Both the position numbers and the translations under genes were made by a program. A stretch of DNA of 55,938 nucleotides from Bacillota bacterium. Lineage in GTDB: Bacteria > Macinerneyibacteriota > Macinerneyibacteria > Macinerneyibacteriales > DSCS01. Where the stretch lies: the NCBI GenBank assembly GCA_011048995.1, contig DSCS01000029.1, positions 69,942 through 125,879 on the forward strand, given 5' to 3'. A model generated the notes under the pieces. The model was given only the letters and a program-made list of their open reading frames with translations, was not told the origin of the DNA and made no database searches. This document shows positions 28,217 through 55,559 of the stretch, in pieces; the first letter of the stretch is position 1, and each line of letters begins with the position of its first letter.

Positions 28217-28241
28217 AGCCCGGGAAATATTTTCCCGGGCT
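28217..28241 (-). terminator. strong rho-independent terminator of the porin operon
   Basis: AGCCCGGGAAA and TTTCCCGGGCT make a perfect 11 bp stem around a 3-base loop. Read on the minus strand the hairpin is followed by seven T residues, so it ends the porin operon; in the + direction it may also slow transcripts from the left. Confidence 0.9.
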
Positions 28242-28263: not shown

Positions 28264-29475
28264 TTAGAAGTTATACTGTAACTTAGCAGAGATCTCATGA
28301 GCCGTATCGTCGTCCAGCTCAAAGAAGTCCCCGGGCATGAACATAGCATAAACGGCACAAAGTTCTAATCCTTCAGCAACATCGAGTTTGACCCCGAGGT
28401 CCAGTTCTGTTCCGAAAGATTTTGTGTAATTCCGGTAATCAGAAGGCCAGTCATAGGAGGCAAATGTTACATAGCCGGCATTGAGGTAGAACATATCATA
28501 GATGATATTAGCGGCGATGACCTGCTGTCCCATGATATACCATTCTCCGTCCAGGTCATAACCGGGACTTACAAACACGGGGTTATCATCCATAACAGGG
28601 CCCTTGAAGAGGTATTCCAGACCATAAGGGTTGAAATAGGGTGCGATCCCCATGAAAGAGATATAATCGCCATTGTCGTTTGTCTTCCCTGGCGAAGTCC
28701 CGTAATGGAGCTTCATATTCAATTTGTCGTTGAAGGCGTAAGAAGCATATCCGTAGATAAATGAGCCATGATCATTATAATCGTCTTCATCAGCAGGCAG
28801 CCATGTATTGTCATTATAGACATAGAGGGCTCCGACCTTCAACTGATCATTGATTGCGTAATCGGCTGTGAGTCCGTAATAGAGGGATGAGAGTTCTTGG
28901 TCTGTGTCTTTGTTGAAAAGAACCGCTGTCCTGGCTGTGAGGTCTCCGAATGTTTTTCCGGCATCCAGGGTAAAGAAGCGTCTGGATTCTCCATTATAAG
29001 CTTCTTCGTCATGGAATACGAAATAACCGGCTTTCAAATCAATGAACTCCAGCTCAGGAGTGATGGTGAGTCCCACAGCGTCTTCGTCAAAGATGGCGCC
29101 CTGATAGATGTCTTTGTAGGGCTGAAGGCCTACTCGGAAGTTGAGCATCTGAACCAAATCAGGTGTAAAATCCAGATAGAGATGTTTAGTCTTGACATTG
29201 ATCTCATCCCTGTTTTGCTCTTCATTACCCCAGATTCCCTTGACTTCCACACCCCATACGAGGTTCAGAGCATCACTGAAAGTCGCTTCTGTGAAAAAGC
29301 GCATCATATAATCGGAATAGGTGATGATATCATGAGGTACTTCATCCATATTATTGTCAAGTATGACAGTCTGCTGTGTCGTCCTGGCGCGCACCATTCC
29401 GTGATAAGAAAAGTCTACACCGAACATCAGAACAGGCAGACAAAGGAAAAAAAGCATAAAAGCTATCTTTTTCAT
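28264..29475 (-). CDS. outer-membrane porin, paralog 4 of the array
   Basis: 403 residues. Signal peptide MKKIAFMLFFLCLPVLMFG, then a 16- to 18-strand-like barrel. It shares with its neighbours the opening DFSYHGMVRART, the block VWGVEVKGIWGNEEQNRDEI followed by a KTKHLYLDF strand, FRVGLQPYKDIYQGAIFDEDAVG, the block PYFNPYGLEYLF, the segment YAMFMPGDFF and a C-terminus ending KLQYNF with terminal Phe for BAM recognition. The layout resembles the homotrimeric porins of Desulfovibrio (VGLQ ... DDDVAG). Probably a general diffusion pore. It is the last gene of a three-gene unit, 12 bases after the previous paralog. Confidence 0.85.
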   Translation of the reverse strand: MKKIAFMLFFLCLPVLMFGVDFSYHGMVRARTTQQTVILDNNMDEVPHDIITYSDYMMRFFTEATFSDALNLVWGVEVKGIWGNEEQNRDEINVKTKHLYLDFTPDLVQMLNFRVGLQPYKDIYQGAIFDEDAVGLTITPELEFIDLKAGYFVFHDEEAYNGESRRFFTLDAGKTFGDLTARTAVLFNKDTDQELSSLYYGLTADYAINDQLKVGALYVYNDNTWLPADEDDYNDHGSFIYGYASYAFNDKLNMKLHYGTSPGKTNDNGDYISFMGIAPYFNPYGLEYLFKGPVMDDNPVFVSPGYDLDGEWYIMGQQVIAANIIYDMFYLNAGYVTFASYDWPSDYRNYTKSFGTELDLGVKLDVAEGLELCAVYAMFMPGDFFELDDDTAHEISAKLQYNF

Positions 29476-29487
29476 AAATCCCCCTTA

Positions 29488-30744
29488 TTAAAAGTTATAC
29501 TGCAGTTTGGCAGAGATCTCATGGGCTGTTTTCGGATCCGTGTCTGTTCCCCACCAGGTTTCATCCTCAAAGAAACTGCCCGGCATAAAGAGAGCATAAA
29601 CGGCACAGAAATCCAGGCCGTCTGTGAGTTGTGTTTTTATGCCAAGATCGATCTCTGTTCCGATATTTTTCTCGAAATCGGGGATTGGGATCGGGGAGTT
29701 TTCTATATCAAAGACCATGTTGACGAAACCGGCATTGAGATAGAAAATATCATAAGTGATATTGGCTGAGAAGACCATGAGGCCGTTATAGAAATCGAAA
29801 GTGTTTCCGGCTGTATTGAAAACAGAGCCGTTTCCCACCGGGAAATCCATGACAGATCCCACGAAGAGATATTCCAATCCGTAGGGGTTGAAATAGGGAG
29901 AGATTCCCTCAAAAGTAGTAATCGACAGAGATCCGTTGTCAAAGTCAAGATTTCCGGGTGTGTAGCCGAAGTTGAGTTTCACGTTGAGTTTTTCTGTCAC
30001 ATCCATTTTCCCGTAAAGATAGGCAAAATAGCCGCTCATATCAGGATTGCCGTCTTCTTCGTCAAAAGAGGTGGTGCTGTAGACGAAATGTCCACCGAAG
30101 TCCATTGTTTCCATAGCATAATCTGCAGCAGCACCGATATAAAGGCGGGAATAGTTGTCCAATGCTCCGGCTTCATAAACTTTGTTCATGAGAGCGGCCG
30201 CTTTCAGTGTCAGAGCATTCATGCTTTTGGAGACATCTAATGTCCAAAAGCGATTAGACAGTCCGGCGATCTCTTCATCATGGAAAACATAATAACCCAA
30301 CGAGACATCGGCTGTCTCCCATTCGGGCATAAGAGAAACACCCACAGCATCATCATCAAAAATAGAACTGGTAAAAATATCACGATAGGGCTGAAGTCCC
30401 AAACGGATATGCATCCAGTCAGCCATCTCCGGTGCAAAATCCATGTAGAGATGTTTGGTCATGACTGTGATCTCGTCGCGATTCTGATCTTCATTACCCC
30501 AGATACCGTTGACTTCTACACCCCATACCATGCTCAGGTTGTCATTGATGGCCGCTGTGGTGAAGAGGTGAAGCTGATAATCTGTCCAGGAGATAATATC
30601 TTCATATCCATGGGCAAGATTATCCAAATAGGGGTCAGTTAACTGAGATCCGCGAGTCCGGAAATGGCCGGAATAGGAAAAATCCACGGCAAAAACCATC
30701 ACCGGAATCAGCATCAATAAGAGAACAATAAGTGTTTTCTTCAT
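29488..30744 (-). CDS. outer-membrane porin, paralog 3 of the array
   Basis: 418 residues. Signal peptide MKKTLIVLLLMLIPVMVFA, mature start VDFSYSGHFRTR. Conserved array blocks are VWGVEVNGIWGNEDQNRDEI, LGLQPYRDIFTSSIFDDDAVG, PYFNPYGLEYLFVG and AVYALFMPGSFF, ending HEISAKLQYNF, identical to paralog 4 over the last 11 residues. Differences cluster in segments between these blocks, where outer loops are expected. The ribosome site is CGGAGGA, with the gene starting 18 bases after paralog 2. Confidence 0.85.
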   Translation of the reverse strand: MKKTLIVLLLMLIPVMVFAVDFSYSGHFRTRGSQLTDPYLDNLAHGYEDIISWTDYQLHLFTTAAINDNLSMVWGVEVNGIWGNEDQNRDEITVMTKHLYMDFAPEMADWMHIRLGLQPYRDIFTSSIFDDDAVGVSLMPEWETADVSLGYYVFHDEEIAGLSNRFWTLDVSKSMNALTLKAAALMNKVYEAGALDNYSRLYIGAAADYAMETMDFGGHFVYSTTSFDEEDGNPDMSGYFAYLYGKMDVTEKLNVKLNFGYTPGNLDFDNGSLSITTFEGISPYFNPYGLEYLFVGSVMDFPVGNGSVFNTAGNTFDFYNGLMVFSANITYDIFYLNAGFVNMVFDIENSPIPIPDFEKNIGTEIDLGIKTQLTDGLDFCAVYALFMPGSFFEDETWWGTDTDPKTAHEISAKLQYNF

Positions 30745-30762
30745 TTCATTCCTCCGTTTTCA

Positions 30763-32004
30763 TTAAAATTGATATTCCAACTTGAAAGCTAATTCATGGG
30801 CGGTCTCTTTGTGGCCGTAGCGTTCTTCCATGAATTTTCCGGGCATAAAGAGGGCATAGACCCCGGACAGGGTCAGACCGTCTGTGACAGGATAGTTGAA
30901 GCCGAAATCGATCTCTTTACCGAATTCTTTCTCATCGGTAGAGGAGTAATTATCAAAGTTGGCTTTGATCATGCCGGCATTCATGTAAAGAAAATCGTAG
31001 TTGATGTTAAGGGCCAAAACAGTTTGCCCAAAATAGTCTCCGTATGTATTGAGCATGGTGGCATGGTCAAAGACCGGGCCGTAGAAGAAATACTCCAGTC
31101 CGTAGAGATTGGCCTGGGGCTTGATGGCTGTAAAGAATGTCAGATCATCGGAGTCATAATCCATCCCGGGTGTGTAACCGAAATGAAGTTTGACATTCAT
31201 TTTTTCACTTATATTGTATTTTCCGTAAAGGTAAGCAAAAAAACCTGATGAATCGACATCGATCGGGAAATCAATATTTTCGGTGAATGTCGATGAATTG
31301 TAGACAAAATGGCCTCCGGCTTCCAGAGCGTCTGTATGATATTTCCCGTGAATACCTAACCACATATTATTATATTCCAAAGGCCAGATCATGATCATTG
31401 GGCTCATAGCATGATCCAGGATATGGGGATCTCTGAAGCCCATATCATAGAGAAAAGCCGCTCCCAGAGAGAAAGAATCGAAATCCTTGCTTCCTTCGAG
31501 CACGAAGAGGTTGTCGTCTCGGTCTTCTGAAATATCCTGGTTGTGGAATTGCAGCCATCCGGCTTTCAGATTGAAAGACTCAAATTTGGGAAAAAAGAAG
31601 ATCCCCACGGCATCTTCATCAAAAATAGCGCTGCCGAAAGGGTCCTTATAGGGCTGGAGCCCCACGCGGACGCTGAGCATGTCCAGAAAATCGGGAGCGA
31701 AATCCATGTAAAGATGTTTTGTCTTCACATTGATCTCGTCACGGTTTTGTTCTTCGTTTCCCCAAACGCCGTCGACTTCAACTCCCCACACAGCCTTTAG
31801 GCTGTCGCTGAAGACGGCATTGGTGAAAAGGCGCATTCTGTAATCTGTCAAGGTGTTGACATCAGGGTTTTCAACGCCGACATTATACCAATGGTGTTCG
31901 GTAAAATCGGCTGTGCGTGTCCGAAACATGCCATTCCATGAAAAATCTACGGCACTAACGGACAAAGGTAATAACAGTAACGCAATCAACAATAATCGTT
32001 TCAT
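30763..32004 (-). CDS. outer-membrane porin, paralog 2 of the array
   Basis: 413 residues from ATG 32004, preceded by AGGAGG; a longer in-frame extension upstream lacks both ribosome site and signal sequence. Signal peptide MKRLLLIALLLLPLSVSA, then VDFSWNGMFRTRTADF. It has the same barrel blocks (WGVEVDGVWGNEEQNRDEI, VRVGLQPYKDPFGSAIFDEDAVG, NLYGLEYFFYG, YALFMPGKF) and ends KLEYQF. It is the first gene of the three-porin transcript and has a candidate promoter immediately upstream. Confidence 0.85.
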   Translation of the reverse strand: MKRLLLIALLLLPLSVSAVDFSWNGMFRTRTADFTEHHWYNVGVENPDVNTLTDYRMRLFTNAVFSDSLKAVWGVEVDGVWGNEEQNRDEINVKTKHLYMDFAPDFLDMLSVRVGLQPYKDPFGSAIFDEDAVGIFFFPKFESFNLKAGWLQFHNQDISEDRDDNLFVLEGSKDFDSFSLGAAFLYDMGFRDPHILDHAMSPMIMIWPLEYNNMWLGIHGKYHTDALEAGGHFVYNSSTFTENIDFPIDVDSSGFFAYLYGKYNISEKMNVKLHFGYTPGMDYDSDDLTFFTAIKPQANLYGLEYFFYGPVFDHATMLNTYGDYFGQTVLALNINYDFLYMNAGMIKANFDNYSSTDEKEFGKEIDFGFNYPVTDGLTLSGVYALFMPGKFMEERYGHKETAHELAFKLEYQF

Positions 32005-32032
32005 CACAAACCTCCTTAAGTGATTTTTGCTA

Positions 32033-32060
32033 AATATAGCATAAAAAAGCAAAATAGCAA
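32033..32060 (-). promoter_or_regulatory. candidate promoter of the three-porin unit
   Basis: On the minus strand TTGCTA (32060-32055), 16 bases, TATATT (32038-32033). A small inverted repeat TGCTA/TAGCA (32028-32041) covers the -10 box and may be an operator. The A/T-rich composition makes chance matches likely. Confidence 0.4.
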
Positions 32061-32061
32061 A

Positions 32062-32091
32062 AAAAAAAGCGAGAATTTCCCCGCTTTTTTT
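32062..32091 (-). terminator. terminator after porin paralog 1 (works both ways)
   Basis: AAAAAAAGCG and CGCTTTTTTT form a 10 bp stem with a 10-base loop, giving a T-run in either direction. It separates porin 1 from the downstream three-porin unit. Confidence 0.7.
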
Positions 32092-32114
32092 AAATGAAAA
32101 TGATTTGAAAAGGG

Positions 32115-33260
32115 TCAGAATTTGAATTTGAGCTGAGCAGCCAGCTCATGGGCGGTCTTATCGTCTTCGCCGAACGCTTTTCCCGGCATGAAGAGGGCAT
32201 AGACACCCGTAAAATCGACCTTTTCCGTAAGGCGTGTTTTAAAACCGAGATCGACTTCGGTCCCTATGGCTTTATCCTCAATGTCACTGTGTGTGGCCCG
32301 GATCAAGCCTGCATTGGCGAAGAGAAAATCATATGCGACATTCAATGCTAAAACCATCTGCCCTGTTTCTCCCCCGTAAGTTGACAAAAGGGATTGTCCG
32401 TCATAAACAGACCCTTTATATGCGTATTCAAGTCCGTAAAGGTCGGAATACTCTTCAATGCCTTCATAAGAGCTGTTCTCTCCTGCAGGAGAATAGCCCA
32501 GTTGTGCTTTCGCGGTGAACTTATCTTTTGATAATTGCGCATAAAGATGAGCAAACATGCCGGAGACCGTTTCAAGGGCATCATCGTCGTAGTTACGGCT
32601 CATATAGATGAGTTGTCCCCCAAATCCAAAGGAATCAAAAGTGAGATCTCCTCCTCCGGCCAGATAAATCGTCGCGGCTTCGTTGCGGTTCAGATCATAA
32701 TATACGGCTCCTTTTACAGTAGAAGAGCCGCCTTTGAAGGAAGAGTCGACGAACGCTAATGTTCTGGAGTCTTCTGTGTTTTCTTTTGCATCGTCATCGG
32801 AAAGAATGAAAATTCCCGATCGTATTTGCATATTGTTCATTTTCGGGAAGACAACGATTCCCGGTGCATCTTCATCAAAGATTGCTTGTCCGAAAAGGTC
32901 TTTATACCCCTGAAGGCCGATTCGCCATTTCATCTGTTTAGCGAAATCAGGGTTCAGATCCATATAAGCGTGCTTGACTTCAATGATCTTTTCATCTTTG
33001 TTATGGCCTTTCCGGCCCCAATCAAAATCACCGACCTCGATTCCTAATGTGAAAGCGACAGCATCACTGTAGGTTGCTTTGGTGTAAAGACGGATGCGGG
33101 AATCGATTTTGCTGATCTCATCGGCCGCTTCAAGGCCGATCTCTTCTGTGTTCGTGTAGGCTGACATGCGTGTTCTCATCTCTCCTTTAAAGGAAAAATC
33201 AGTAGCCCCGACGAGTACGGGAAGCAGGGCCAAAAGAAGAAAAACTCCAACTTTTTTCAT
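32115..33260 (-). CDS. outer-membrane porin, paralog 1 of the array (divergent member)
   Basis: 381 residues, the shortest of the four. Signal peptide MKKVGVFLLLALLPVLVGA, then TDFSFKGEMRTRMSAY. It keeps LGIEVGDFDWGRKGHNKDE, WRIGLQGYKDLFGQAIFDEDAPG, DLYGLEYAYKGSVYDG, VYALFMPGKAF and ends QLKFKF, but is more diverged than the other three are from each other. The DWG..GHN segment and the IGLQGYKD block make it the closest in style to Desulfovibrio homotrimeric porins. It is separated from the others by a terminator and probably forms its own transcript. The ribosome site is AAGGAGG. Confidence 0.85.
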   Translation of the reverse strand: MKKVGVFLLLALLPVLVGATDFSFKGEMRTRMSAYTNTEEIGLEAADEISKIDSRIRLYTKATYSDAVAFTLGIEVGDFDWGRKGHNKDEKIIEVKHAYMDLNPDFAKQMKWRIGLQGYKDLFGQAIFDEDAPGIVVFPKMNNMQIRSGIFILSDDDAKENTEDSRTLAFVDSSFKGGSSTVKGAVYYDLNRNEAATIYLAGGGDLTFDSFGFGGQLIYMSRNYDDDALETVSGMFAHLYAQLSKDKFTAKAQLGYSPAGENSSYEGIEEYSDLYGLEYAYKGSVYDGQSLLSTYGGETGQMVLALNVAYDFLFANAGLIRATHSDIEDKAIGTEVDLGFKTRLTEKVDFTGVYALFMPGKAFGEDDKTAHELAAQLKFKF

Positions 33261-43011: not shown

Positions 43012-43931
43012 TGCGTCTCATATTTATGGGAACAAGCGAATTCGCCCTGCCCTCCCTTGAAAGGCTGGCCGGAGAGCATGAGGTCGCCGCTGTCTTTACC
43101 AAGGCGGACAAGCCGGCCCACCGGGGTATGAAAGTCAAAAAAGGGGTTGTAAAGGCCTGGGCTACGGAGCATGGTATCCCCGTTTTCACGCCTTCCCGAC
43201 TGAAAGCCTTTGAGGCTGCCCGCTGCAGAGAGATCGCCCCGGACTGTATCGTCGTTGTCTCTTACGGGTTGAAGATCCCCCTGGAGATCCTCGATATCCC
43301 CCCTCTGGGAGCTGTCAATGCCCATGCCTCTATTTTGCCTAAATATAGGGGCTCTTCGCCTGTGAACGCAGCGGTTCTCAATGGAGAAAAGAAGAGTGGG
43401 GTCACCGTCTTCAGGCTGAATGAAGAGTGGGATGCCGGGGATATTCTCCTCACAAAAGAGATCACACTGGACGAGCGGGAGACAGCTTCTTCGCTTTGGG
43501 ATAAACTGCGCCGCCTTTCAGCCGAAGCTCTTTCAGAAACACTGAATTCCATGGATGAGATCACCCCTCTCCCACAGGAAGAGGGAAAAGCGACCTTTGC
43601 CATGAAGATCTCAAAAGAGGATGCGCGTATTTCCTGGGAAAGCGATGCCCCTGGGGTCGACCGCTATGTGCGGGGATATTTTTCATGGCCCGGAGCTTTT
43701 ACGACTCTGGAAGGGAAGACGGTAAAGATCCTTGGCGGGTGTCCTGCGGATGAAGAACACAATGTTGCCCCGGGGACGATCCTGGAGGTGGATCCCGATA
43801 AGGGGATCAAAGTCGCCTGCGGGAAGGGGGTCTTTTATATCACCGAACTGCAGATGGAATGTAAAAGAGCCATGTCATTCAAGGATTTTCTCAACGGATG
43901 CCCTTTATGTGCAGGAGAGCGGTTTCTCTGA
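43011..43931 (+). CDS. fmt: methionyl-tRNA formyltransferase
   Basis: 306 residues from ATG 43011, which shares a base with the def stop (TGATG). MRLIFMGTSEFALPSLE opens the formyltransferase domain, AVNAHASILPKYRGSSPV contains the catalytic Asn and His with the folate loop, and EEWDAGDIL the catalytic Asp. A C-terminal OB domain binds initiator tRNA. It ends the housekeeping operon. A perfect palindrome TTTCCCGGGAAA at 43952-43963 follows, but no T-run. Confidence 0.96.
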   Translation: MRLIFMGTSEFALPSLERLAGEHEVAAVFTKADKPAHRGMKVKKGVVKAWATEHGIPVFTPSRLKAFEAARCREIAPDCIVVVSYGLKIPLEILDIPPLGAVNAHASILPKYRGSSPVNAAVLNGEKKSGVTVFRLNEEWDAGDILLTKEITLDERETASSLWDKLRRLSAEALSETLNSMDEITPLPQEEGKATFAMKISKEDARISWESDAPGVDRYVRGYFSWPGAFTTLEGKTVKILGGCPADEEHNVAPGTILEVDPDKGIKVACGKGVFYITELQMECKRAMSFKDFLNGCPLCAGERFL

Positions 43932-43989
43932 AGGGTTTATCTTTTAACGGATTTCCCGGGAAAAATTGAATAAAAAGCAAAATCCCCCC

Positions 43990-44017
43990 TTGACATCAGG
44001 GGAAGTGTCCCTATAAT
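43990..44017 (+). promoter_or_regulatory. consensus promoter of the TetR-exporter operon
   Basis: TTGACA at 43990-43995, 16 bases, TATAAT at 44012-44017. The spacer contains an imperfect inverted repeat (AGGGG/TCCCT, 43998-44012), a suitable place for autorepression by the TetR protein encoded next. Confidence 0.85.
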
Positions 44018-44071
44018 CCAAAAAGGAAACTAATTATACGCAATAAGTGTGAAACGTGAAAGTGAGGGGAT

Positions 44072-44656
44072 ATGAACCGTCAGCTAAGGACAAAAGAAAA
44101 GATCAGAGCTGCCGCCGCAGATCTCTTTATACGGCATACTGTCAGCCGGGTGACAGCAGACGAGATAGCTTCTTATGCCGGGATGAGCAAGAAGACTCTG
44201 TACAACCACTTTTCTTCAAAAGAAGAGCTTGAAAGCGAGGTCTTTCTTCATTTCATCCACGATATCCGTCTTCAGATAGGACGGTTGGCTGAAGAAGATA
44301 CGGACTTTCTCCATAAGCTTCAAAACCTTATGCGGATCATCACTCATGTCACGGGGATACTCAGTGACAGGCTGATCGAGGACCTGCAGCAAAACAAAAG
44401 GGAATTGTGGAGAATGATCGATGAGGAGAGGCATATAAGTTTTGTCGAAGGGGTCACTCCGATTTTCCGCCAGGGACAGCAGCAGGGGTTCATCAGAAAT
44501 AACATCGATATTCCCTTTGTTATGGAGATGCTCTATCAGAATATCCGTATCATAAGCGATTCTGAATTTATCCGTTCCAGCAGCCGCTCTCTTTCCGAGC
44601 TGGCTCCGCTGATGCTTGACATCTTCATGAATGGGATCATGGAAAAAGGGAAATAG
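44072..44656 (+). CDS. TetR-family transcriptional regulator
   Basis: 194 residues. The N-terminal helix-turn-helix is clear: KIRAAAADLFIRHTVSRVTADEIASYAGMSKKTLYNHFSSKEEL (about 9-52, long stretch given by position). The C-terminal ligand domain is helical and not assignable. As the first gene of an operon encoding a tripartite exporter, it is very likely the local repressor, released by an exported compound; CecR beside YbhGFSR in E. coli is a comparable arrangement. Confidence 0.9.
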   Translation: MNRQLRTKEKIRAAAADLFIRHTVSRVTADEIASYAGMSKKTLYNHFSSKEELESEVFLHFIHDIRLQIGRLAEEDTDFLHKLQNLMRIITHVTGILSDRLIEDLQQNKRELWRMIDEERHISFVEGVTPIFRQGQQQGFIRNNIDIPFVMEMLYQNIRIISDSEFIRSSSRSLSELAPLMLDIFMNGIMEKGK

Positions 44657-44669
44657 AGAAGGAGGAAGC

Positions 44670-45539
44670 ATGAAGGCCACAGGTATTTTACTCTTTACAG
44701 CGCTCCTGTTCCTGATATCAGGATGTGCGGGGTCTGGGAATGCTGTCTTTTCGGGGACATTTGAGGCTGAAGAGGTGGATGTCAGCGCTTTGGGAACCGG
44801 AAGGATCGTCGAAATAATGGTAGAAGAGGGAACACAAGTCAAAAAAGGAGAAGACCTTCTGGCTGTGGATCATGAACTTCTCTCTCTTCAACGGGACCAG
44901 GCGCGGTTTGCTCTGGCATCACTTGGAGAAAAGATCAAAGGGCTTGAAAAGAACCTGGAAACGGCCGAGGTGAATTTTGAACGGGTCAGTCGTCTCTATC
45001 AGGAGGGAACTCTGTCTAAAGCCAGGTACGATGAAGCAGAGAACGCCTATGTGGGAGCAAAAAGCGCTTTTCAGGGAGCCCTGATGGATGCAGAGAGGCT
45101 CAAAAAAGAGGCCGCTGTCCTAGAAAAACAGATCAGAGACAGCATTGTCAAAGCTCCCCGGGAAGGGACGGTCACGGAGATCCTCTATAAAGAAGGAGAA
45201 TATGTCAGGGCAGGAAGTATCGTCCTGAGCCTTGCTGACCTGCGTACCCTGGATATCAGGTTTTATGTACCGGAAAAGGACCTGGAGATGATACGCGTCG
45301 GAGCTCCGGTGGAGATCATCCCTGACGCCATGCCGGATGCGGTTTATCGGGGGAGGATCACGACAGTTGCCCGGGAATCGGAATTTACCCCAAAGAATGT
45401 CCAATCAAAAGACGAGAGGGTCCTCCTTGTCTATAAGGTGGAGGCTGAAGTAGAGAACAGCGACGGGAAATTGAAAAAGGGGATGAATGGTGACATCATT
45501 ATCCCCGTTAAGGCGGAGGATGATGAAAGCAGTCATTGA
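44670..45539 (+). CDS. HlyD-type membrane fusion lipoprotein
   Basis: 289 residues from ATG 44670 (GAAGGAGG upstream). The signal peptide ends in the lipobox FLISGC, so it should be anchored by lipid on the periplasmic side. The biotinyl-like half motifs are VSALGTGRIVEIMVEEGTQV and IVKAPREGTVTEILYKEG, flanking a coiled-coil hairpin (about 85-165); a beta-barrel domain follows (RTLDIRFYVPEKDLEMI). It bridges the inner-membrane permeases and TolC. It resembles YbhG. It overlaps the next gene by 17 bases. Confidence 0.92.
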   Translation: MKATGILLFTALLFLISGCAGSGNAVFSGTFEAEEVDVSALGTGRIVEIMVEEGTQVKKGEDLLAVDHELLSLQRDQARFALASLGEKIKGLEKNLETAEVNFERVSRLYQEGTLSKARYDEAENAYVGAKSAFQGALMDAERLKKEAAVLEKQIRDSIVKAPREGTVTEILYKEGEYVRAGSIVLSLADLRTLDIRFYVPEKDLEMIRVGAPVEIIPDAMPDAVYRGRITTVARESEFTPKNVQSKDERVLLVYKVEAEVENSDGKLKKGMNGDIIIPVKAEDDESSH

Positions 45540-46449
45540 CATAAAAGGCCTCAGATTCAGTTACGGAGAGGTACAGGCTCTTGACGGCGTCTCCTTTGAT
45601 GTAGGCGAAGGAGAGATGTTCGGTTTGATCGGCCCGGATGGAGCAGGGAAATCCACGCTGATTAAAATCCTTTGCGGGATCCTCAAAGGATATGAAGGAG
45701 AGGCCGCTGAACTGGGAGAGGATTTAAAAACAGGGGGAGAGTCCATTAAATCCCGTCTTGGATACCTTTCTCAGGAATTCAGCCTTTACAGCGATCTCAC
45801 TGTGGAAGAAAATATGTCCTTTTTCGCTGAGATCCATCAGATCAGGGATTTTCCCCGTCGCCGCCGGGAGCTGCTGGATTTTACACGGATGGCCCCTTTT
45901 CGTAACCGTAAAGCCGGGGCCCTTTCAGGCGGGATGAAAAAGAAGCTGGCCCTGGCCTGTACCCTGATCCACTCTCCCTCCATCGTCTATCTGGATGAAC
46001 CCACAAACGGGGTGGACCCTGTCTCGCGCAGAGAGTTCTGGGAGATCCTATCCGAACTTCTCAAGACGGGGGTGACGGTATTTATGACGACGCCCTACAT
46101 GGATGAAGCTGAACGCTGTTCTCGTGTGGCTTTTCTGAACGAAGGGAAACTCCTCACGGTGGATCATCCCTCTCTTATGAGGAGCCGGTTCCCCTATGAG
46201 GTCTTTGAGTTGATTCCGTCACCTTCGAAGGATGCCGGAGAAATACTCGAAAAATGGCCCGGGATCCGGGATGTCCAGAGCTTTGGGGAGAGGCTTCATC
46301 TCTATTTTCTGAAGGATAAAGCTCCTGATGCCCGCAGCCTCATCTCGCAGTTTAAGGAAAAGAAGGTCTACAGCCGCGGGGGCCGCTATATCTCTCCGTC
46401 ATTGGAAGATGTCTTTATCAACTATCTCGATAAGGGAGGAGAACAATGA
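45523..46449 (+). CDS. ABC transporter ATP-binding protein (exporter subunit 1)
   Basis: 308 residues; of two tandem ATGs the second (45523) has the better spacing from GGAGG. Walker A GPDGAGKST, signature LSGGMKKKLALA, Walker B IVYLDEPTNGVDPVSRR. The switch region reads MTTPYMDEAERC, where a conserved His is replaced (usually TTHYMDEA), so ATP hydrolysis by this site may be weak. The C-terminal tail ends in PSLEDVFINYL as in drug-export ATPases. It corresponds to the first half of the double ATPase YbhF. Confidence 0.92.
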   Translation: MKAVIDIKGLRFSYGEVQALDGVSFDVGEGEMFGLIGPDGAGKSTLIKILCGILKGYEGEAAELGEDLKTGGESIKSRLGYLSQEFSLYSDLTVEENMSFFAEIHQIRDFPRRRRELLDFTRMAPFRNRKAGALSGGMKKKLALACTLIHSPSIVYLDEPTNGVDPVSRREFWEILSELLKTGVTVFMTTPYMDEAERCSRVAFLNEGKLLTVDHPSLMRSRFPYEVFELIPSPSKDAGEILEKWPGIRDVQSFGERLHLYFLKDKAPDARSLISQFKEKKVYSRGGRYISPSLEDVFINYLDKGGEQ

Positions 46450-47768
46450 AACGGTTTATCACTTGTCTTGCAGTCTTCATCTTCTCTGTCTTTATGATCT
46501 CGGCGGAGCCGATAGAACTGACAATACGTCAGGCCCTTGAAAGGGCCTTTGACCGGGATCTGGGCTACCAAGCAGCGAAAAAGGATGTCCTGATCAGTGA
46601 AGCCCGGGCCGGGCAGGCTGCTGGAGATCTCTGGCCGTCGATCACAGTCGAGTCTTCCCTCTTTCTTACCGATGAAAAAGAGGCGTACACCCTTTCTCTG
46701 CCCCTTTCCTCAGAAGAGGTAGTCATTGCACCCGAGACGGATCGATTGCAGAAAAACAGTATTACCCTTGTCCAGCCTCTTTTTGCCGGAGGGACACTTG
46801 TCAGCAAAAAGGCTTTCTTCCGTACAGGAATTAAAATATCAGAAAGCCGGCTCAAGGAGACGGCAGGTGATCTTGCCTTGAGGGTCCATGAGCTCTATTG
46901 GTCCATGGCAAAACTGGACAACGGGGAAAAGGCCCTTGAAAAAACACGTGAACTTGTCCTTGCACATATGAAGGATGTGGAGACTTTTTACAACGAAGGG
47001 CTGGCTACCAAAGTGGATCTGTTGAGAGTGAAAGAACGTCTTTCCCGAATCGACCTGGAGATCATAGAAAACAAAAACCGGCTTGAAAAGACGGCCCTTC
47101 AGCTTAAGAATATCCTGGGCCTGGACGGGGGAGAGAGGATCATAACAGTCTCTTCTGTAGAAGAGATAGCCGGGAACCTTCCTTCGGAGAGTCTATGCGT
47201 GGAAACAGCTGGGAAAAGCAATGATTCTCTCAGGGAGGCGCGTTTTGCCGTAGAGGCTGCCCGTTATCAGAAAAGGATGGTTCGCGGAGATCTTTCTCCC
47301 AAGGTTGCCTTTGTCGCTGCGTATCATTACGATAAGCCAAATTCTTCTCAGCAGCCTCTCCTGGATACTTATCAGGAAAGCTGGGAAGCGGGGCTCTCTC
47401 TCTCTTTTGATCTCTTCTCCGGAGGGAAGAGGTTCGCGCGGGTTACAGAAGCTTCGTTGTCCGAAGAACGCAGCATCCTGATATACGAAAAATTGCGGCG
47501 GAACCTGGAAAGCTATGTCAGGGCTCATTACCGGGATTATGAAGCACAGGGGCTGACACTTGAAGCAGCCCGGCGGAATTTTGAAGAAGCAGAAGAGAAT
47601 TTCAGAATGACAAGGTCTCTTTATCTGGAAGGAATGGCTGTCAATACTGATGTCCTGGATGCTGAAGCGGCCTATACCGAGGCTCAGATCCGTGTCTTGA
47701 ATGCAGCTGTGGACAAAGAACTGGCCCGGCTCAGGCTTTTGAATATCATGGGAGTCCTGGAAAGATGA
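46446..47768 (+). CDS. TolC-family outer-membrane efflux protein
   Basis: 440 residues. Signal peptide MKRFITCLAVFIFSVFMISA. The mature part has the two TolC repeats: ELTIRQALERAFDRDLGYQAAKKD, the coiled stretch with GLATKVDLLRVKERLSRIDLEI, and the second repeat LYLEGMAVNTDVLDAEAAYTEAQIRV. It forms the outer-membrane channel and alpha-barrel tunnel of the exporter. Its gene overlaps both flanking ATPase genes by 4 bases (ATGA), so the pump stoichiometry is probably tuned by coupled translation. Confidence 0.93.
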   Translation: MKRFITCLAVFIFSVFMISAEPIELTIRQALERAFDRDLGYQAAKKDVLISEARAGQAAGDLWPSITVESSLFLTDEKEAYTLSLPLSSEEVVIAPETDRLQKNSITLVQPLFAGGTLVSKKAFFRTGIKISESRLKETAGDLALRVHELYWSMAKLDNGEKALEKTRELVLAHMKDVETFYNEGLATKVDLLRVKERLSRIDLEIIENKNRLEKTALQLKNILGLDGGERIITVSSVEEIAGNLPSESLCVETAGKSNDSLREARFAVEAARYQKRMVRGDLSPKVAFVAAYHYDKPNSSQQPLLDTYQESWEAGLSLSFDLFSGGKRFARVTEASLSEERSILIYEKLRRNLESYVRAHYRDYEAQGLTLEAARRNFEEAEENFRMTRSLYLEGMAVNTDVLDAEAAYTEAQIRVLNAAVDKELARLRLLNIMGVLER

Positions 47769-48691
47769 GAAGTGAATCAGCTGTCACCGTCAAAGGGCTT
47801 TGTAAAAGGTTCGGTTCCTTTACAGCCGTAGACCATATCGATTTTACGGTACGAAAAGGAGAGATCTTTGGTTTTCTGGGAGCCAACGGTGCCGGCAAGA
47901 CGACTACGATCCGGATGTTATGCGGCCTTCTTCGCCCTTCTGAGGGGGTCGGAAAGGTAGCAGGATTTGATATCATGACAGACACAGAGATGATCAAGAC
48001 CAGGATCGGCTATATGTCCCAGAAGTTTTCTCTATATGATGATCTCACTATCATGGAGAATATCTCTTTTTTCGGCGGATTGTACGGATTATCAGCCAGG
48101 GAATTGGGAAAAAGGGGGAGGGAGGTCATAGAGTGGGCCGGCCTGGCGGGGATGGAGCGGCGCATCACCTCTACCCTGGCGGGAGGGTGGAAACAAAGGC
48201 TGGCCCTGGGGACAGCCCTTCTTCATGAACCGGAGATCATCTTCCTCGATGAACCCACAGCCGGTGTCGATCCCGTCTCCAGAAGAAATTTCTGGAAAAT
48301 TATTCAGGAGATCGCACATCGGGGTGTGACAGTCTTTGTGACGACCCATTACCTGGATGAAGCGGAATATTGTCATTCGATCAGGCTGATGGATAGAGGG
48401 CGGATCATAGCCGCCGGAGCTCCCGAAGAGCTCAAAAAAGAGGTCATTACCGAAAAAATGTATCAGATGGAGACAGATCAGCCTGCAAGGGCCGTGCATA
48501 TTCTGAAAACCCTTCAGGATATTTCCGGAGCTTCTCTCCTTGGGATCAAGATAAACATTCTAACGGATCTCCCGGAGCAGGAGTTGAAACAGATGGTCTT
48601 AGAGAAGATGAGCGCTGAAGAGATCCGTGTGGAATCTCTGGAGCCTGTGGACCCTACCCTGGAAGATGTCTTTATCAGGCTCATCAAATAA
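47765..48691 (+). CDS. ABC transporter ATP-binding protein (exporter subunit 2)
   Basis: 308 residues. Walker A GANGAGKTTT, signature LAGGWKQRLALG (a Trp-containing form seen in YbhF-type ATPases), Walker B IIFLDEPTAGVDPVSRR, switch His in VTTHYLDEAEYC. All catalytic residues are present, unlike the first ATPase. The tail VDPTLEDVFIRLIK is typical. With the first ATPase it should form a heterodimer, the equivalent of one fused YbhF. Confidence 0.93.
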   Translation: MRSESAVTVKGLCKRFGSFTAVDHIDFTVRKGEIFGFLGANGAGKTTTIRMLCGLLRPSEGVGKVAGFDIMTDTEMIKTRIGYMSQKFSLYDDLTIMENISFFGGLYGLSARELGKRGREVIEWAGLAGMERRITSTLAGGWKQRLALGTALLHEPEIIFLDEPTAGVDPVSRRNFWKIIQEIAHRGVTVFVTTHYLDEAEYCHSIRLMDRGRIIAAGAPEELKKEVITEKMYQMETDQPARAVHILKTLQDISGASLLGIKINILTDLPEQELKQMVLEKMSAEEIRVESLEPVDPTLEDVFIRLIK

Positions 48692-48701
48692 GGAGAATAT
48701 C

Positions 48702-49808
48702 ATGGGAAGAATCAGAGCGGTGGTAAAAAAGGAGATGAAGCATATCGTCAGAGACCGGCGTTCCTTCAGCCTTCTTGTCATTATCCCTCTCTTTATGCTG
48801 GTCCTTTTCGGCTTCGCCCTCAACTTCAATGTCACAGAGGTGCCCATGGATGTGATAGACCGGTCACAGAGCTCCGAAAGCAGGCTTCTGATCGATAAAT
48901 TCGTACAATCGGGCTATTTTAAGGTACGACGCTTCTTGCCGGACGAGAAAGAGGCTCTTGATGCCATGTCCCGGGGGGAAAGTGTGCTTATCCTCGATAT
49001 TCCCGGAGACTTCAGTCACAACCTTCGAAAAGGCATTGAGAGTGATGTCGGCCTTTTTTTTGACGGAGTGGATACCAATACCGCTACAGCAGTCATGAGC
49101 TATGCGGAGAATATCATATCGCTTTTTAACCGTGAGAGGGCCGGAACGGCTCCGGATTCAGCAGGGATCGACTTCAGACCTCGAGTCTGGTATAATCCCG
49201 AGCTCAGCTCCCGGGTCTTTCTGATTCCCGGACTCATCGTCTATATTCTCATGATCATCACAGTGGTCTCCACATCGCTGACCATTGTCCGGGAAAGAGA
49301 GGAAAGGACCATCGAGCAACTCATCGTCTCCCCCCTGGGGTCTATGGAGCTTATTCTGGGGAAAGTGGTCCCCTATATGATTCTGACCTTGGGAAGTGCC
49401 CTTGCCATCATGGCTTTTGGATATCTGATTTTCGGAGTCGGCGTCAAGGGTAGCCTGCTTCTTCTCTTTTTAAGTATGGCAATCTTTCTCACTGTGGGTG
49501 TCGCCACGGGGATCCTTATCTCGGCGATAGCCGATACACGACAATTCGCTTTTCTTCTGGCTGTTCTTTTTACCGTCCTCCCCACCTTGCTGCTTTCCGG
49601 TTTTGTCTTCCCGATCCGCAATATGGCTCCATTTATACAGGGAATCACCTATCTGGTCCCTGCCCGTTATTTCACTGAGATCATCCGGAATATCTATATC
49701 AAAGGCGTGGGTTTCGAGACATTCTGGGGCGAGTTTTCCGTGATGACCCTGATGGCCGCAGGCCTTCTTTTTATCAGTATCCGGAAGCTCAGATCACGTT
49801 TATCATAG
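48702..49808 (+). CDS. ABC-2 type permease (exporter subunit 1)
   Basis: 368 residues from ATG 48702 with AGGAG upstream. An N-terminal amphipathic segment and helix (KKEMKHIVRDRRSFSLLVIIPLFMLVLFGFAL), a large extracytoplasmic domain (about 45-175, including FDGVDTNTATAVMSY) and five C-terminal helices with the family's REREERTIEQLIVSPLGSMELILGKVVPY. This is the YbhS/YbhR architecture. It exports drugs, lipids or other hydrophobic compounds through the HlyD-TolC conduit. Confidence 0.92.
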   Translation: MGRIRAVVKKEMKHIVRDRRSFSLLVIIPLFMLVLFGFALNFNVTEVPMDVIDRSQSSESRLLIDKFVQSGYFKVRRFLPDEKEALDAMSRGESVLILDIPGDFSHNLRKGIESDVGLFFDGVDTNTATAVMSYAENIISLFNRERAGTAPDSAGIDFRPRVWYNPELSSRVFLIPGLIVYILMIITVVSTSLTIVREREERTIEQLIVSPLGSMELILGKVVPYMILTLGSALAIMAFGYLIFGVGVKGSLLLLFLSMAIFLTVGVATGILISAIADTRQFAFLLAVLFTVLPTLLLSGFVFPIRNMAPFIQGITYLVPARYFTEIIRNIYIKGVGFETFWGEFSVMTLMAAGLLFISIRKLRSRLS

Positions 49809-49816
49809 GAGGGAAA

Positions 49817-50941
49817 ATGACGCGTCTTTTTGCTTTTATCAGAAAAGAATTCCTGCAGTTTAAACGAGACCCGAAGATGCTGGCTATGAGCATCCTCTCT
49901 CCTCTTCTTCAACTGATCCTCCTGGGGTATGCCGCAAGCTTCGATATCTCGCATATTCCCACAGCTGTCTGGGACCGGGACGGAAGCGCGATGAGCCGTT
50001 CTTATATCGATGCTTTTCAGGCGAGTGATGCTTTCAAAGTGCTTAGCCCTCTTCAGAGCCGTGAAGAACTTGTGCGGCGCCTTGACACGGGGGAAGCCGC
50101 CCTGGCTCTTATCATCGAAGAAGGTTTTCAATCTCATATTCTGGCGGGAGAGTCACCAAAAGTGGCCGCTCTGGTGGACGGAACAGACACCAATACGGCG
50201 ACCTCAGGACTCTTCTACTCAGGGGAGGTCACTAAAAGCTTTGTACAAAGATCGAGAAAACCCCCACTTACTTCTCTCATGACTCATAAGGCGGGGCAGG
50301 TTGTGCCCCGGATGCGTGTGACGTTCAACCAAAGTCTTGAAAGCCGGTACTTTCTGGTTCCGGGGATCCTCGGGCTTGTCCTCATGATCATCACCATGAC
50401 CCTGACATCGTTGGCTATTGTGAAAGAGAAAGAGAAGGGGACTTTGGAACAGGTGATGGTGACCCCTGTAAAAGGCTGGGAAGTCATCCTCGGGAAGCTG
50501 ATACCCTTTGCAGTCATCGGAATGATCGATGTTCTGCTGGTCATCGGCGCAGCGGTATTTCTTTTCGGGATACCCTTGAAAGGAAGCCTGGCCCTTCTAC
50601 TGGCGCTCTCCTTCCTCTATCTCTTAAGTATGCTGGGATTGGGGCTTTTTATCTCAACGATCTCCCGGACCCAGCAACAAGCTATGCTTACCGCTGTCTT
50701 CTTTATCATAACACCCATGGTCTTTCTCTCGGGGTTTATTTTTCCGGTCCGCAATATGCCGGAGGGGATTCAACTTGTGACACCCCTCCTGCCTCTTAAA
50801 CACTATCTGGAGATCATCAGGGGTATTTTTTTAAGAGGAGCGGGGATCCGGCAGCTTTGGGCTCCGGTGTCGGCTCTTGCTGTTCTCAGCCTGGGTATCT
50901 TTTCAGTGAGCCTTCTTCGGTTCAGAAAATCATCGGAATGA
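49817..50941 (+). CDS. ABC-2 type permease (exporter subunit 2)
   Basis: 374 residues, paralogous to the preceding permease and with the same topology: RKEFLQFKRDPKMLAMSILSP at the N-terminus, VDGTDTNTATSGLFY in the external domain, KEKEKGTLEQVMVTPVKGWEVILGKLIPF before the membrane bundle. The two permeases should heterodimerise. It is the last gene of the exporter operon, followed by a 140-base gap. Confidence 0.92.
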   Translation: MTRLFAFIRKEFLQFKRDPKMLAMSILSPLLQLILLGYAASFDISHIPTAVWDRDGSAMSRSYIDAFQASDAFKVLSPLQSREELVRRLDTGEAALALIIEEGFQSHILAGESPKVAALVDGTDTNTATSGLFYSGEVTKSFVQRSRKPPLTSLMTHKAGQVVPRMRVTFNQSLESRYFLVPGILGLVLMIITMTLTSLAIVKEKEKGTLEQVMVTPVKGWEVILGKLIPFAVIGMIDVLLVIGAAVFLFGIPLKGSLALLLALSFLYLLSMLGLGLFISTISRTQQQAMLTAVFFIITPMVFLSGFIFPVRNMPEGIQLVTPLLPLKHYLEIIRGIFLRGAGIRQLWAPVSALAVLSLGIFSVSLLRFRKSSE

Positions 50942-51020
50942 ACATACGAATTTTCTGACAAGCCCCCGAGTCTTTCAGGATACTCTTCCATTCATTTTTC
51001 CCACACCTTCTCCATACTGT

Positions 51021-51049
51021 TTGACATCATTACAATCCCCTGATAAAAT
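51021..51049 (+). promoter_or_regulatory. extended -10 promoter of the nqr-like operon
   Basis: TTGACA at 51021-51026, 17 bases, TAAAAT at 51044-51049 preceded by TGA (extended -10). It gives a leader of about 25 bases before the first gene. Confidence 0.8.
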
Positions 51050-51081
51050 AGAGGAAACTTCATTCTTTTAAGGGGGACAGG

Positions 51082-52023
51082 ATGGCAGAAGGAAAAAAGA
51101 TCATCCAGAAGCAGAAGCCTATGCGGACTGTGCTTACGGGACTGACCCCCGCGGTGGCCGCTTCTGTCTATTATTTCGGATGGAGAAGCCTGGTGCTTCT
51201 CTTTGTCGTCACTTTTTTCGGATTTTTAACAGAGTATATCTTTGACAGGTTTTATAATAAGCCTGTCACTGAGGCGGTCTTTGTCACCTGTGTCCTCTTT
51301 GCTCTTTCCCTTCCGCCTACACTGCCTTACTGGATGGCCGCTCTGGGGATCATCTTCGGCCTGGTCTTCGGGAAACTGGCCTTCGGCGGGTTCGGACGCA
51401 ATGTCTTCAACCCCGCTCTGGTGGGTCGTATTTTCCTCTATATCAATTTCGGTAACGCGATGACAGGGAAAGGGGCCTGGCTTGACCCCGACGGGACTTT
51501 CCCCGCCGGCCTGGTACGGTTTACTCTGGACAGTATCAGCGAAGCCACTCCTCTCAGAGCTCTTGCTTCGGGTGGCTCTGTTGCGGTGAAGGATCTTTTT
51601 TTAGGGAACACAGGAGGATGCCTGGGAGATACGGCGGCTTTTCTTCTTATTATGGGAGGGATCTATATCCTCTGGAAAAAAGCCGCCAATTACCGTATTG
51701 TCACCGGGGTCCTGCTGGGTTTTCTGGCGATGAACGGTAGCTTGTGGCTGGCAGGCCTGACTTTTGATCCCCTGCGGGGGCTGTTGGCCGGAGGTTTTTT
51801 GCTGGGAGCTTTCTTCATGGCCACCGACCCTGTCTCAGCAGCCCAGACGAACAGGGGACGGTGGATATACGGGATCCTTATCGGGGTCTTGTCCGTTCTC
51901 ATCCGGGTATTCTCCAATTGGCCGGAAGGGATCATGTTTGCTATTCTCCTGGGAAATATGTTCGCTCCTATCATCGATTATGCCCTTTCTGCCCGAAAGA
52001 GAAAGGGGGAAGGCCATGCCTGA
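51082..52023 (+). CDS. NqrB/RnfD family subunit
   Basis: 313 residues with about nine to ten membrane helices. It opens with MRTVLTGLTPAVAASVYYFG and has GGFGRNVFNPALVGRIFL and the flavinylation motif ISEATPLRAL, where Thr156 should carry covalent FMN. AGGFLLGAFFMATDPVSA follows near the C-terminus. The length matches RnfD better than NqrB (about 410), which has an N-terminal extension missing here, while the downstream genes are of the Nqr type. It belongs to the sodium- or proton-translocating core. Starts behind AAGGGGGA. Confidence 0.88.
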   Translation: MAEGKKIIQKQKPMRTVLTGLTPAVAASVYYFGWRSLVLLFVVTFFGFLTEYIFDRFYNKPVTEAVFVTCVLFALSLPPTLPYWMAALGIIFGLVFGKLAFGGFGRNVFNPALVGRIFLYINFGNAMTGKGAWLDPDGTFPAGLVRFTLDSISEATPLRALASGGSVAVKDLFLGNTGGCLGDTAAFLLIMGGIYILWKKAANYRIVTGVLLGFLAMNGSLWLAGLTFDPLRGLLAGGFLLGAFFMATDPVSAAQTNRGRWIYGILIGVLSVLIRVFSNWPEGIMFAILLGNMFAPIIDYALSARKRKGEGHA

Positions 52024-52654
52024 AAGAAAAACAGTCTGGCTGAAAAGCCTTTATACAATCGTGTTTATGACAGGATTGACCGCCCTTTTTATTACAGTTC
52101 TTTCGGCTCTCTTTTTAAAGACCCGGCCTCTCATCGAGATCAATGAAGCCTATGATGTCAAGTTGGCTGTTCTCCGTGCTGCGGGGATTTCTCCTGAATC
52201 AACGGAGGCTTCTGATGTCATCTCTCTTTATGACCTTCTGGTGGAAGAGAAGGAATTTCCCGCTGAAAAATGGAATTACTATCAGGTGGGTGCAGAGGAG
52301 GGGCTTCATGCCTTTGTCTTCCCTTTCAGGGGGGCGGGGTTATGGGGAGAGATCGAAGGGGTGTTAGGATATGATGCGTCGTTGGAGCATATCACAGGGA
52401 TGGACATTCTCAAACAGAATGAGACCCCCGGTTTAGGAGGGCGTATCGGCGAAGATTGGTTTAAAGATCAGTTTATCGGAAAACAGGGCCCTTTTACGGA
52501 GTTGACACAAAACGGCGGAGAAGAGAAGCTTCTTTATTCTTTTCAAGCCATTACCGGGGCAACATCCACATCGGCCGCTTTTCAATCGATCATCAATGAA
52601 TTGATTGAAAAGCATGTCAAGGCTTTACGCCGTCACCTTGAGGAGGAGCGATGA
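52016..52654 (+). CDS. nqrC: NqrC/RnfG family flavoprotein subunit
   Basis: 212 residues from ATG 52016, overlapping the upstream stop by 8 bases. One N-terminal helix (SLYTIVFMTGLTALFITVLSAL), an FMN-binding domain with NETPGLGGRIGEDWF, and the ApbE target ITGATSTSAAF, in which Thr185 (last of GATST) should bear phosphoester-linked FMN. The RTVW-type N-terminus and GATST spacing agree with NqrC. The domain faces the periplasm, where ApbE acts. Confidence 0.9.
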   Translation: MPERKTVWLKSLYTIVFMTGLTALFITVLSALFLKTRPLIEINEAYDVKLAVLRAAGISPESTEASDVISLYDLLVEEKEFPAEKWNYYQVGAEEGLHAFVFPFRGAGLWGEIEGVLGYDASLEHITGMDILKQNETPGLGGRIGEDWFKDQFIGKQGPFTELTQNGGEEKLLYSFQAITGATSTSAAFQSIINELIEKHVKALRRHLEEER

Positions 52655-53259
52655 AAGGCGATACACATAAACTGTTTCGTGACGGATTATTTAAGAACAA
52701 TCCCGTCTTTATACAGATTCTGGGTATTTGTTCCACTCTGGCGGTGACCAATACCGTAAAAAATACAGCGGTCATGGTGGCCGGCCTGCTTTTCGTGGTT
52801 GCGTTTTCAAATTTGACTATTTCGTTTTTGCGAAAAGCCATTCCATCCAGAGTAAGAATGATGGCTGAAGGACTGATTATTGCCTCTTTTGTCATCATCG
52901 TCGATATCGTTCTCAAAGCCTATCTGTGGGATATATCAAAACAGCTGGGACCCTATGTGGGCCTGATCATCACTAATTGTATCATTATGGGGCGTGCTGA
53001 AGCCTTTGCTATTTCGAATCCTCCCTGGCCTTCATTCCTTGATGGGGTGGCTTCGGGCCTGGGATATGCCTATGTTCTTCTTTCCATAGCTATTGTCAGG
53101 GAGCTTTTAGGATACGGGACACTTTGGGGCATTCGGATCATGGGAGAGGGGTGGGTCAATTGGACAATGATGGTTATGGCTTCCGGAGCTTTTTTTATGC
53201 TGGCCCTCTTTATTTGGATTATGAAGGGTGTTGTCTTTCGGGAAAGAGGTGAAGCATGA
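52651..53259 (+). CDS. nqrD: Na+-translocating NADH:quinone oxidoreductase subunit D
   Basis: 202 residues with six membrane helices. NNPVFIQILGICSTLAVTNTV and GPYVGLIITNCIIMGRAEAFA are the two inverted motifs, each with a cysteine that with NqrE binds an iron centre inside the membrane. MGRAEAFA followed by SNPPWPSFLDG favours NqrD over RnfE. It overlaps its neighbours by 4 bases on both sides. Confidence 0.92.
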   Translation: MKGDTHKLFRDGLFKNNPVFIQILGICSTLAVTNTVKNTAVMVAGLLFVVAFSNLTISFLRKAIPSRVRMMAEGLIIASFVIIVDIVLKAYLWDISKQLGPYVGLIITNCIIMGRAEAFAISNPPWPSFLDGVASGLGYAYVLLSIAIVRELLGYGTLWGIRIMGEGWVNWTMMVMASGAFFMLALFIWIMKGVVFRERGEA

Positions 53260-53843
53260 CATTTTTAGGAGCTTTTGCTATCTTTTTTGCCGCGATTTTC
53301 ACCAATAATATTCTTTTGACGAATTATCTCGGAATGTGTTCCTTTATCTCAGTGTCCCGCGAAATAAAGACTTCTGTGGGCCTGGGAGCGGCGGTGACGT
53401 TTGTGATGGCTTTGACCAGCGCTATCAACTGGGCCGTGTATCACTATCTTCTTGTTCCCCATTTAGTCTATTTGCGGTTTATCGTTTTTATTGTCGTTAT
53501 CGCCGCTTTTGTCCAGATTGTCGAAATGATCATTGAACGGGTGTCCGATGTCCTTTATGCGGCCTTGGGTATTTTTCTGCCCCTGATCACCGTCAATTGC
53601 GCCATCCTCGGCGTCAGTCTTTTTATGGTGATCCGTGACTATACCTTTATTCAGTCCTTTGCATTTGGGCTGGGAAGCGGCTTGGGCTGGATGCTGGCTA
53701 TTATCGCCATGGCTGGAATCCGCCAAAAAATAAATAAAAGCCCCATTCCCAAAGGATTGGAGGGGGCCGGTATTACTCTGATCATCGCAGGGATCATGGC
53801 TATGGCGTTTGTGGGTTTTTCCGGAATGATTGCTATCGGATAG
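53256..53843 (+). CDS. nqrE: Na+-translocating NADH:quinone oxidoreductase subunit E
   Basis: 195 residues, six helices, inverted relative to NqrD. FFAAIFTNNILLTNYLGMCSFISVS and FLPLITVNCAILGVSLFM contain the two iron-ligand cysteines. INWAVYHYLL in the third region is Nqr-like. Start overlaps the nqrD stop by 4 bases; a GAAAGAGG lies upstream. Confidence 0.92.
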   Translation: MTFLGAFAIFFAAIFTNNILLTNYLGMCSFISVSREIKTSVGLGAAVTFVMALTSAINWAVYHYLLVPHLVYLRFIVFIVVIAAFVQIVEMIIERVSDVLYAALGIFLPLITVNCAILGVSLFMVIRDYTFIQSFAFGLGSGLGWMLAIIAMAGIRQKINKSPIPKGLEGAGITLIIAGIMAMAFVGFSGMIAIG

Positions 53844-53853
53844 AGGGGAGACT

Positions 53854-54957: not shown

Positions 54958-54969
54958 GAGGAGCCCCCT

Positions 54970-55437: not shown

Positions 55438-55473
55438 CCAAGTATTTTTCTTTTCTTTTTTTTTAAAAAGTGC

Positions 55474-55502: not shown

Positions 55503-55559
55503 CCCTTTCGTTGGCGCTGAGCTCACGGTAGCGAAGCGGCGGCATTTTTTTTTTGGAGA

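Follow-up and report, generated by a model that had tools for sequence, protein, structure and literature searches.

A probable inter-lineage recombination tract within an old tandem porin array of Candidatus Mcinerneyibacteriota

Parts of porin genes are known to pass between lineages, and linked porin paralogs are known to exchange sequence with one another. Interspecies recombination is described for ompF of Yersinia (PMC3105102), porA is a recombination-hot gene in Neisseria meningitidis (PMC4866539), the 85-100% identical and oppositely oriented omp2a and omp2b of Brucella are diversified by mutual gene conversion (PMC7050475), and MOMP of Campylobacter jejuni is an 18-strand trimeric porin whose constriction is lined with acidic residues, five of them binding Ca2+ (PMC5090048). 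Here we describe four adjacent porin genes at positions 28264-33260 of a 55,938-nucleotide stretch of DNA (the window), which is the right end of the 125,879-base contig DSCS01000029.1 of a Candidatus Mcinerneyibacteriota metagenome-assembled genome (MAG; 1.88 Mb, 99.7% complete). The fourth gene of this array, copy 4, probably contains a segment that was exchanged between lineages by homologous recombination, as was part of the ompF and porA genes. The exchanges in Yersinia and Neisseria took place within one well-sampled genus or species, whereas the genomes compared here have neighbouring genes that are 39-95% identical in protein and belong to a phylum represented here by three genomes. 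Compared with Brucella omp2a and omp2b, which are likewise closely linked porin paralogs differing in surface loops, the present copies are only 36-50% identical, lie in one direction and show no detectable conversion of the omp2 type.

We compared the array with two relatives, G001 of the same genus (hereafter the relative) and G002 of the same order (Candidatus Mcinerneyibacterium aminivorans), three genomes of the phylum in all. Copy 4 and its ortholog in the relative are 91.8% identical in amino acids and 89.4% in nucleotides, and they match at 112 of 157 fourfold-degenerate sites (71%), while copies 1-3 together match at 176 of 395 (42-48% each; Fisher p 1.1e-8 versus copy 4). The background was drawn from sampled sequence, 845,879 bases for the window genome and 652,374 for the relative, each under half of the genome. 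These yielded 423 reciprocal best pairs of open reading frames (ORFs), 329 of which had at least 25 fourfold sites and 248 of which remained without overlapping ORFs; setting aside 14 pairs on one contig of the relative, C9, left 234, and dropping 81 with fewer than 60 sites left 153, copy 4 included. The other 152 pairs have a mean fourfold identity of 38.7% with a standard deviation of 5.3% and a maximum of 54.1%. Copy 4 lies 6.1 standard deviations above them and ranks first in the larger sample of 234, and the 17 genes around it, the other three porins among them, remain at 29-48%.

The excess does not extend over the whole of copy 4. A change-point fit confines it to codons 61-360, in which 229 of 275 codons for conserved residues are identical to those of the relative, compared with 42 of 79 outside, and none of 150 permutations gave a tract as extreme. 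The last 43 codons match at 5 of 17 fourfold sites, and both flanks of the gene are syntenic and show ordinary divergence on the 25.9 kb contig of the relative. What was found is the pattern of an inter-lineage recombinant, a bounded tract of silent-site identity far above background. Because the excess is bounded inside the gene, with native and ordinarily diverged flanks, we infer homologous recombination as its cause: after the split of the two species, about 0.9 kb inside copy 4 would have been replaced by DNA from the other lineage, or from an organism closely related to it. The same change-point test gave p 0.013 for copy 2 (150 permutations), 0.07 for copy 3 and 0.92 for copy 1. In copy 2, all 16 of 16 codons compared over residues 142-158 are identical to those of the ortholog and, by their position, lie inside an identical stretch of 53 nucleotides; this run, in one of four copies tested, is possibly a second short exchanged tract.

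The direction of the exchange is also something we infer, from base composition. The GC content at third codon positions (GC3) in the copy 4 of the relative drops from 0.700 in codons 1-60 to 0.563 within the tract, the genome samples having 0.611 (relative) and 0.501 (window genome), and this drop weakly hints that the relative was the recipient and that the donor had a lower GC3, as the window lineage does. Several points weigh against the reading of an exchange or against this direction. The copy 1 of the relative has a GC3 of 0.537 over the same codons and its copy 4 has 0.545 in codons 361-403, which lie outside the tract; since both share the low GC3 without an exchange signal, we place little weight on the direction. 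With two genomes of the genus, donor and recipient are not separable by phylogeny. Two short ORF pairs with 34 sites each exceeded a fourfold identity of 0.6 before the 60-site filter was applied. Finally, since the two genomes were both assembled from metagenomes, a contig may be chimeric.

Such assembly chimerism, with copy 4 of one MAG containing reads that stem from a closely related third organism, is the main rival to recombination, although we consider it unlikely. Multi-copy porin genes can confuse assembly, and contig C9 of the relative also switches abruptly from 93-100% identity to the background level, so that chimerism would explain both cases. However, copy 4 differs enough in DNA between the two genomes that the own copy of neither species can have been placed in the contig of the other; moreover, the ends of the tract show ordinary divergence, the longest identical stretch is 53 nucleotides, the reading frame is intact in both genomes, and the flanks on both sides are native. 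The 12.8 kb contig C9 (L068) matches positions 43,101-55,899 of the window. From its left end to about position 51,990, over at least 8.9 kb, identity is 93-100% per 200 bases, and beyond that point it is 58-88%, except in the tRNA region (97%). The switch falls 34 bases before the stop codon of an nqrB/rnfD-like gene (51082-52023). The 14 ORF pairs on C9 divide in the same contig into nine with a fourfold identity of 0.93-0.99 and five with 0.31-0.40, and the block contains fmt, a TetR-like regulator and an HlyD/ABC/TolC/ABC-2 export operon. Two block genes, fmt and the TolC-like gene, were searched for in the relative, and neither has a second, more divergent ortholog there; a 25% identical TolC paralog is present in both genomes. 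The lack of such second orthologs argues against a contig that was simply misplaced, as does the fact that the right part of C9 is native, and either a recent large exchange or a chimeric contig remains. At the end of the window (55560-55938), tRNA-Lys and tRNA-Glu immediately precede a 16S rRNA gene that the contig end cuts off.

Less probable still than chimerism is strong selection at the nucleotide level, by which expression-linked codon choice, RNA structure or an overlapping frame would have fixed the silent sites of copy 4. Porins are often very highly expressed, and copy 4 is the most conserved of the four in protein, both of which would suit this explanation. However, GroEL matches at only 106 of 259 fourfold sites (41%) despite a protein identity of 94.9%, and the 26 pairs with at least 85% amino acid identity, the most conserved in the sample, have a mean of 41% and a maximum of 53%; protein conservation is therefore ruled out as the cause. 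Shared codon bias is ruled out in the same way, because the base composition at fourfold sites predicts only 27% matches in copy 4. In addition, copies 2 and 3 lack such a signal in the same apparent operon, the excess stops before the end of the gene, and an antisense ORF (28897-29769), considered as a constraint, was rejected because its span covers only part of the tract. In none of the three genomes (G000, G001 and G002) did the EF-Tu model TIGR00485 reach E 1e-50, although 11 of 14 control genomes were positive, so there was no EF-Tu control for the silent-site comparison.

Exchange among the copies of the array itself had been suggested in the original prediction, to be sought as conversion tracts at the DNA level. 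We applied a longest-run test on silent codons to the six paralog pairs, in two versions. Neither the 73 codon columns in which the four copies agree in amino acid and differ in codon (2000 shuffles, smallest p 0.23) nor all same-residue codons of each pair (smallest p 0.12) gave an excess of runs, in a test that would miss old or very short tracts; p was thus 0.12 or more in all six pairs. Copies 3 and 4 do end in identical residues as predicted, but the identity spans the last 13 residues (TAHEISAKLQYNF) and not 11, and because 6 of these 13 codons differ in DNA, the shared C-terminus is, judged from the sequence, not a product of recent conversion. That the array is maintained by gene conversion and shuffling among its own copies, diversifying the loops, is thus very improbable, since the tandem arrangement, the concentration of divergence in loops and the identical ends of copies 3 and 4 are met by the missing run excess, the one-to-one orthologs and the differing codons, and for recent tracts the sequences already refute it.

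Recombination between lineages acted, in our reading, on an array that was already old. The four genes recur in the relative in unchanged order and with the same neighbours, on one 25.9 kb contig, and when six distant outgroups are included in a tree, every copy groups with its counterpart in the relative at 100/100 support. In the same tree copies 3 and 4 are sisters (97/95), and copy 1 groups with the two intact copies of M. aminivorans (90/90, not a starred fork); copy 1 is also the porin of the array most similar to M. aminivorans copy A1 (46%). Because of the shared genes, order and one-to-one orthology, the duplications are old and predate the split of the two same-genus species. The four tandem paralogs with shared motifs are borne out by the ORFs and their pairwise protein identities of 36.2-49.9%; the repeated local duplication that had been proposed is not, and copy number is constant within the genus (four and four, in the one same-genus genome compared) and varies across the order. 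M. aminivorans has two intact porin genes and a third that is a remnant, beside different genes; this third gene (L014:2428-3258) lacks the first ~100 residues (the first third) in frame and has in-frame stop codons upstream. A porin scan of genome contigs returned JAFGWL010000031.1 (a Candidatus Mcinerneyibacteriota MAG) and VSIX01000069.1 (Candidatus Mcinerneyibacterium aminivorans). Distant family members occur beyond the phylum too, as partial matches at E 0.001 or better in 35 further genomes among the 386 searched, and at least 2 of 17 fetched outside loci, with short flanks, have a second matching ORF beside the first. Such tandem porins are thus no peculiarity of this genome, and the four copies are ordinary porin paralogs of long standing. 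A phage or virus origin was rejected, as none of 8 pattern matches among viral contigs was confirmed.

The four genes lie head to tail on the minus strand (Table 1), with gaps of 18 bp between copies 2 and 3 and 12 bp between copies 3 and 4. The array is bordered by murB on one side and, on the other, by a convergent 218-residue ORF that adjoins the gene for heptaprenyl diphosphate synthase component I. The ORF of copy 2, second in transcription order, is listed as 30763-32052 with a TTG start, but its start is most likely the ATG at 32004, which stands behind AAGGAGG.

Table 1. Coordinates, in the window, of the porin genes and of the features associated with them.
Feature	Position	Strand	Remarks
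Porin copy 1	32115..33260	-	381 residues; first transcribed, most divergent
Intrinsic terminator between copies 1 and 2	32062..32091	-	13 pairs, loop of 4, U-run
Promoter-like site upstream of copies 2-4	32033..32060	-	TTGCTA-N16-TATATT, TG before second hexamer (extended -10); consensus match only
Porin copy 2	30763..32004	-	413 residues, counted from ATG 32004
Porin copy 3	29488..30744	-	418 residues
Porin copy 4	28264..29475	-	403 residues
Mosaic tract in copy 4 (codons 61-360)	28396..29295	-	change-point fit; position derived from the residue numbering
Intrinsic terminator behind copy 4	28217..28241	-	follows the last copy

The array would form two transcription units, copy 1 alone and, after a terminator and a promoter, copies 2-3-4. 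The terminator behind copy 1 has a folding energy of -13.3 kcal/mol (z -4.0), and a hairpin with a T-run stands at the equivalent position in the relative, seen by folding and absent from the pattern-scan listing. Just downstream of it, at the same place as the promoter-like site of the window, the relative has TTGTCA-N16-TATATT, the shared form being TTGYYA-N16-TATATT. The predicted separate transcription of the divergent first copy is in this way upheld by signals conserved in the relative, against which stands the finding that promoter-like sites are no commoner than in shuffled sequence in the regions of both genomes (11 versus 12.4; 5 versus 5.5). No terminator-like site was found between copies 2 and 3 or copies 3 and 4 in the window. 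In the relative, a strong hairpin of -27 kcal/mol (L013:12309-12339) lies between copies 3 and 4, which the window genome lacks, and because of this difference the expression of copy 4 may differ between the two genomes. Read-through of this hairpin appears likelier than a separate promoter of copy 4, since the hairpin leaves no space for a promoter before the copy 4 start codon.

All four proteins share a signal peptide, a GLQxYKDxF...IFDEDA block, YGLEY, FMPG and a terminal Phe. No Pfam family exceeded its cut-off for any of them, and a sequence search of solved structures gave a best E of 0.14. The only NCBIfam model with a clear, though sub-threshold, match to copy 1 is the homotrimeric porin DESULF_POR1 (NF033939; 60.1 bits, E 1.6e-16), which also matches the M. 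aminivorans copies, covers the first 170-180 residues and has no match listed at E 1 or less in copies 2-4. Its cut-off of 250 bits, far above the copy 1 score, was reached in none of the three genomes, so none of these genes is assigned to that family, and a term search found no paper containing both "homotrimeric porin" and Desulfovibrio.

AlphaFold2 models built from a ten-row alignment give copy 1 an 18-strand barrel (predicted local distance difference test, pLDDT, 72.9; predicted template modelling score, pTM, 0.72) with a signal-like helix at residues 2-17, and copy 3 a weaker barrel (pLDDT 64.6, pTM 0.64) with 20 strand segments, some of them short neighbours. The top Foldseek match of both models is Campylobacter MOMP (copy 1 versus 5ldv, E 3.1e-15), and both have the fold of a MOMP-like 18-strand porin. 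By VIA-align, copy 1 superposes on AlgE 3rbh_D with Z 26.3 and a root-mean-square deviation (rmsd) of 3.4 over 326 aligned residues and on MOMP 5ldt_A with Z 23.3 and rmsd 4.0 over 331, and copy 3 on MOMP 5ldv with Z 25.2 and rmsd 3.6 over 343. AlgE ranks first for the two models (Z 26.0 and 26.3), ahead of MOMP (25.2 and 23.3), with OprD-type channels close behind. Because AlgE and OprD-type barrels score equally well, the modelled fold is shared among large outer-membrane channels generally and is not specific to MOMP. With a signal peptide, a barrel in the 16-18-strand range (18 in the copy 1 model) and a C-terminal aromatic residue (Phe in all four), the array genes are predicted to be general porins that form pores.

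The original prediction held that the copies differ in loop-like segments. This is correct for most loops: across the four copies, strand columns are 44% identical, L1, L4, L5, L6 and L8 are 7-23% identical, and L7 and L9 are 34-35% identical. It does not hold for L2 (67%) and L3 (64%), which are more conserved between the paralogs than the strands. L3, the connection between strands 5 and 6, carries the best-conserved motif, is 91% identical between orthologs and is acidic in all ten sequences aligned; from its place between these strands, L3 (GLQxYKDxFxxAIFDEDA) should be the constriction loop, folded inward. The acidic L3 is suggestive only, by analogy, of the Ca2+ site at the constriction of MOMP-type porins. 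Similar to MOMP, copy 1 is predicted to have an 18-strand barrel with an acidic loop entering the pore, but the identity in alignments is 12-15%, the present genes are tandem paralogs, and the trimer and Ca2+ are features of MOMP. Since the duplications, each copy would have diverged as a stable paralog, with L3 kept and the other surface loops varied.

Recombination in porins is a known kind of event, to which copy 4 adds a new case from a phylum that has barely been sampled. A term search found Mcinerneyibacterium or Mcinerneyibacteriota in three papers, no dedicated search for reports of recombination in the phylum having been made, and in the portion of the Zodletone survey that was searched (PMC9040765) the name appears solely as that of an author among the references. 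The array also serves as a warning that C-terminal residues shared between paralogs are not evidence of conversion, and a silent-site comparison with one relative can separate conversion between copies from exchange between species. With the tract in copy 4, an ordinary tandem porin array becomes a datable record of recombination in a phylum known here from three genomes. We tentatively propose a wider reading, in which two deeply diverged Mcinerneyibacteriota lineages would still be trading chromosomal DNA through homologous recombination, with two events of different size and age inside a single 56 kb window: an older replacement of 0.9 kb in a surface-exposed porin, and a recent replacement of at least 8.9 kb that starts at fmt, crosses the ABC/HlyD/TolC efflux operon and extends into the last part of nqrB. 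The spread of the porin allele may be due to a surface that changes recognition by phages or predators. If true, exchange across such a divergence, at which silent sites are ~39% identical, would be unusual.

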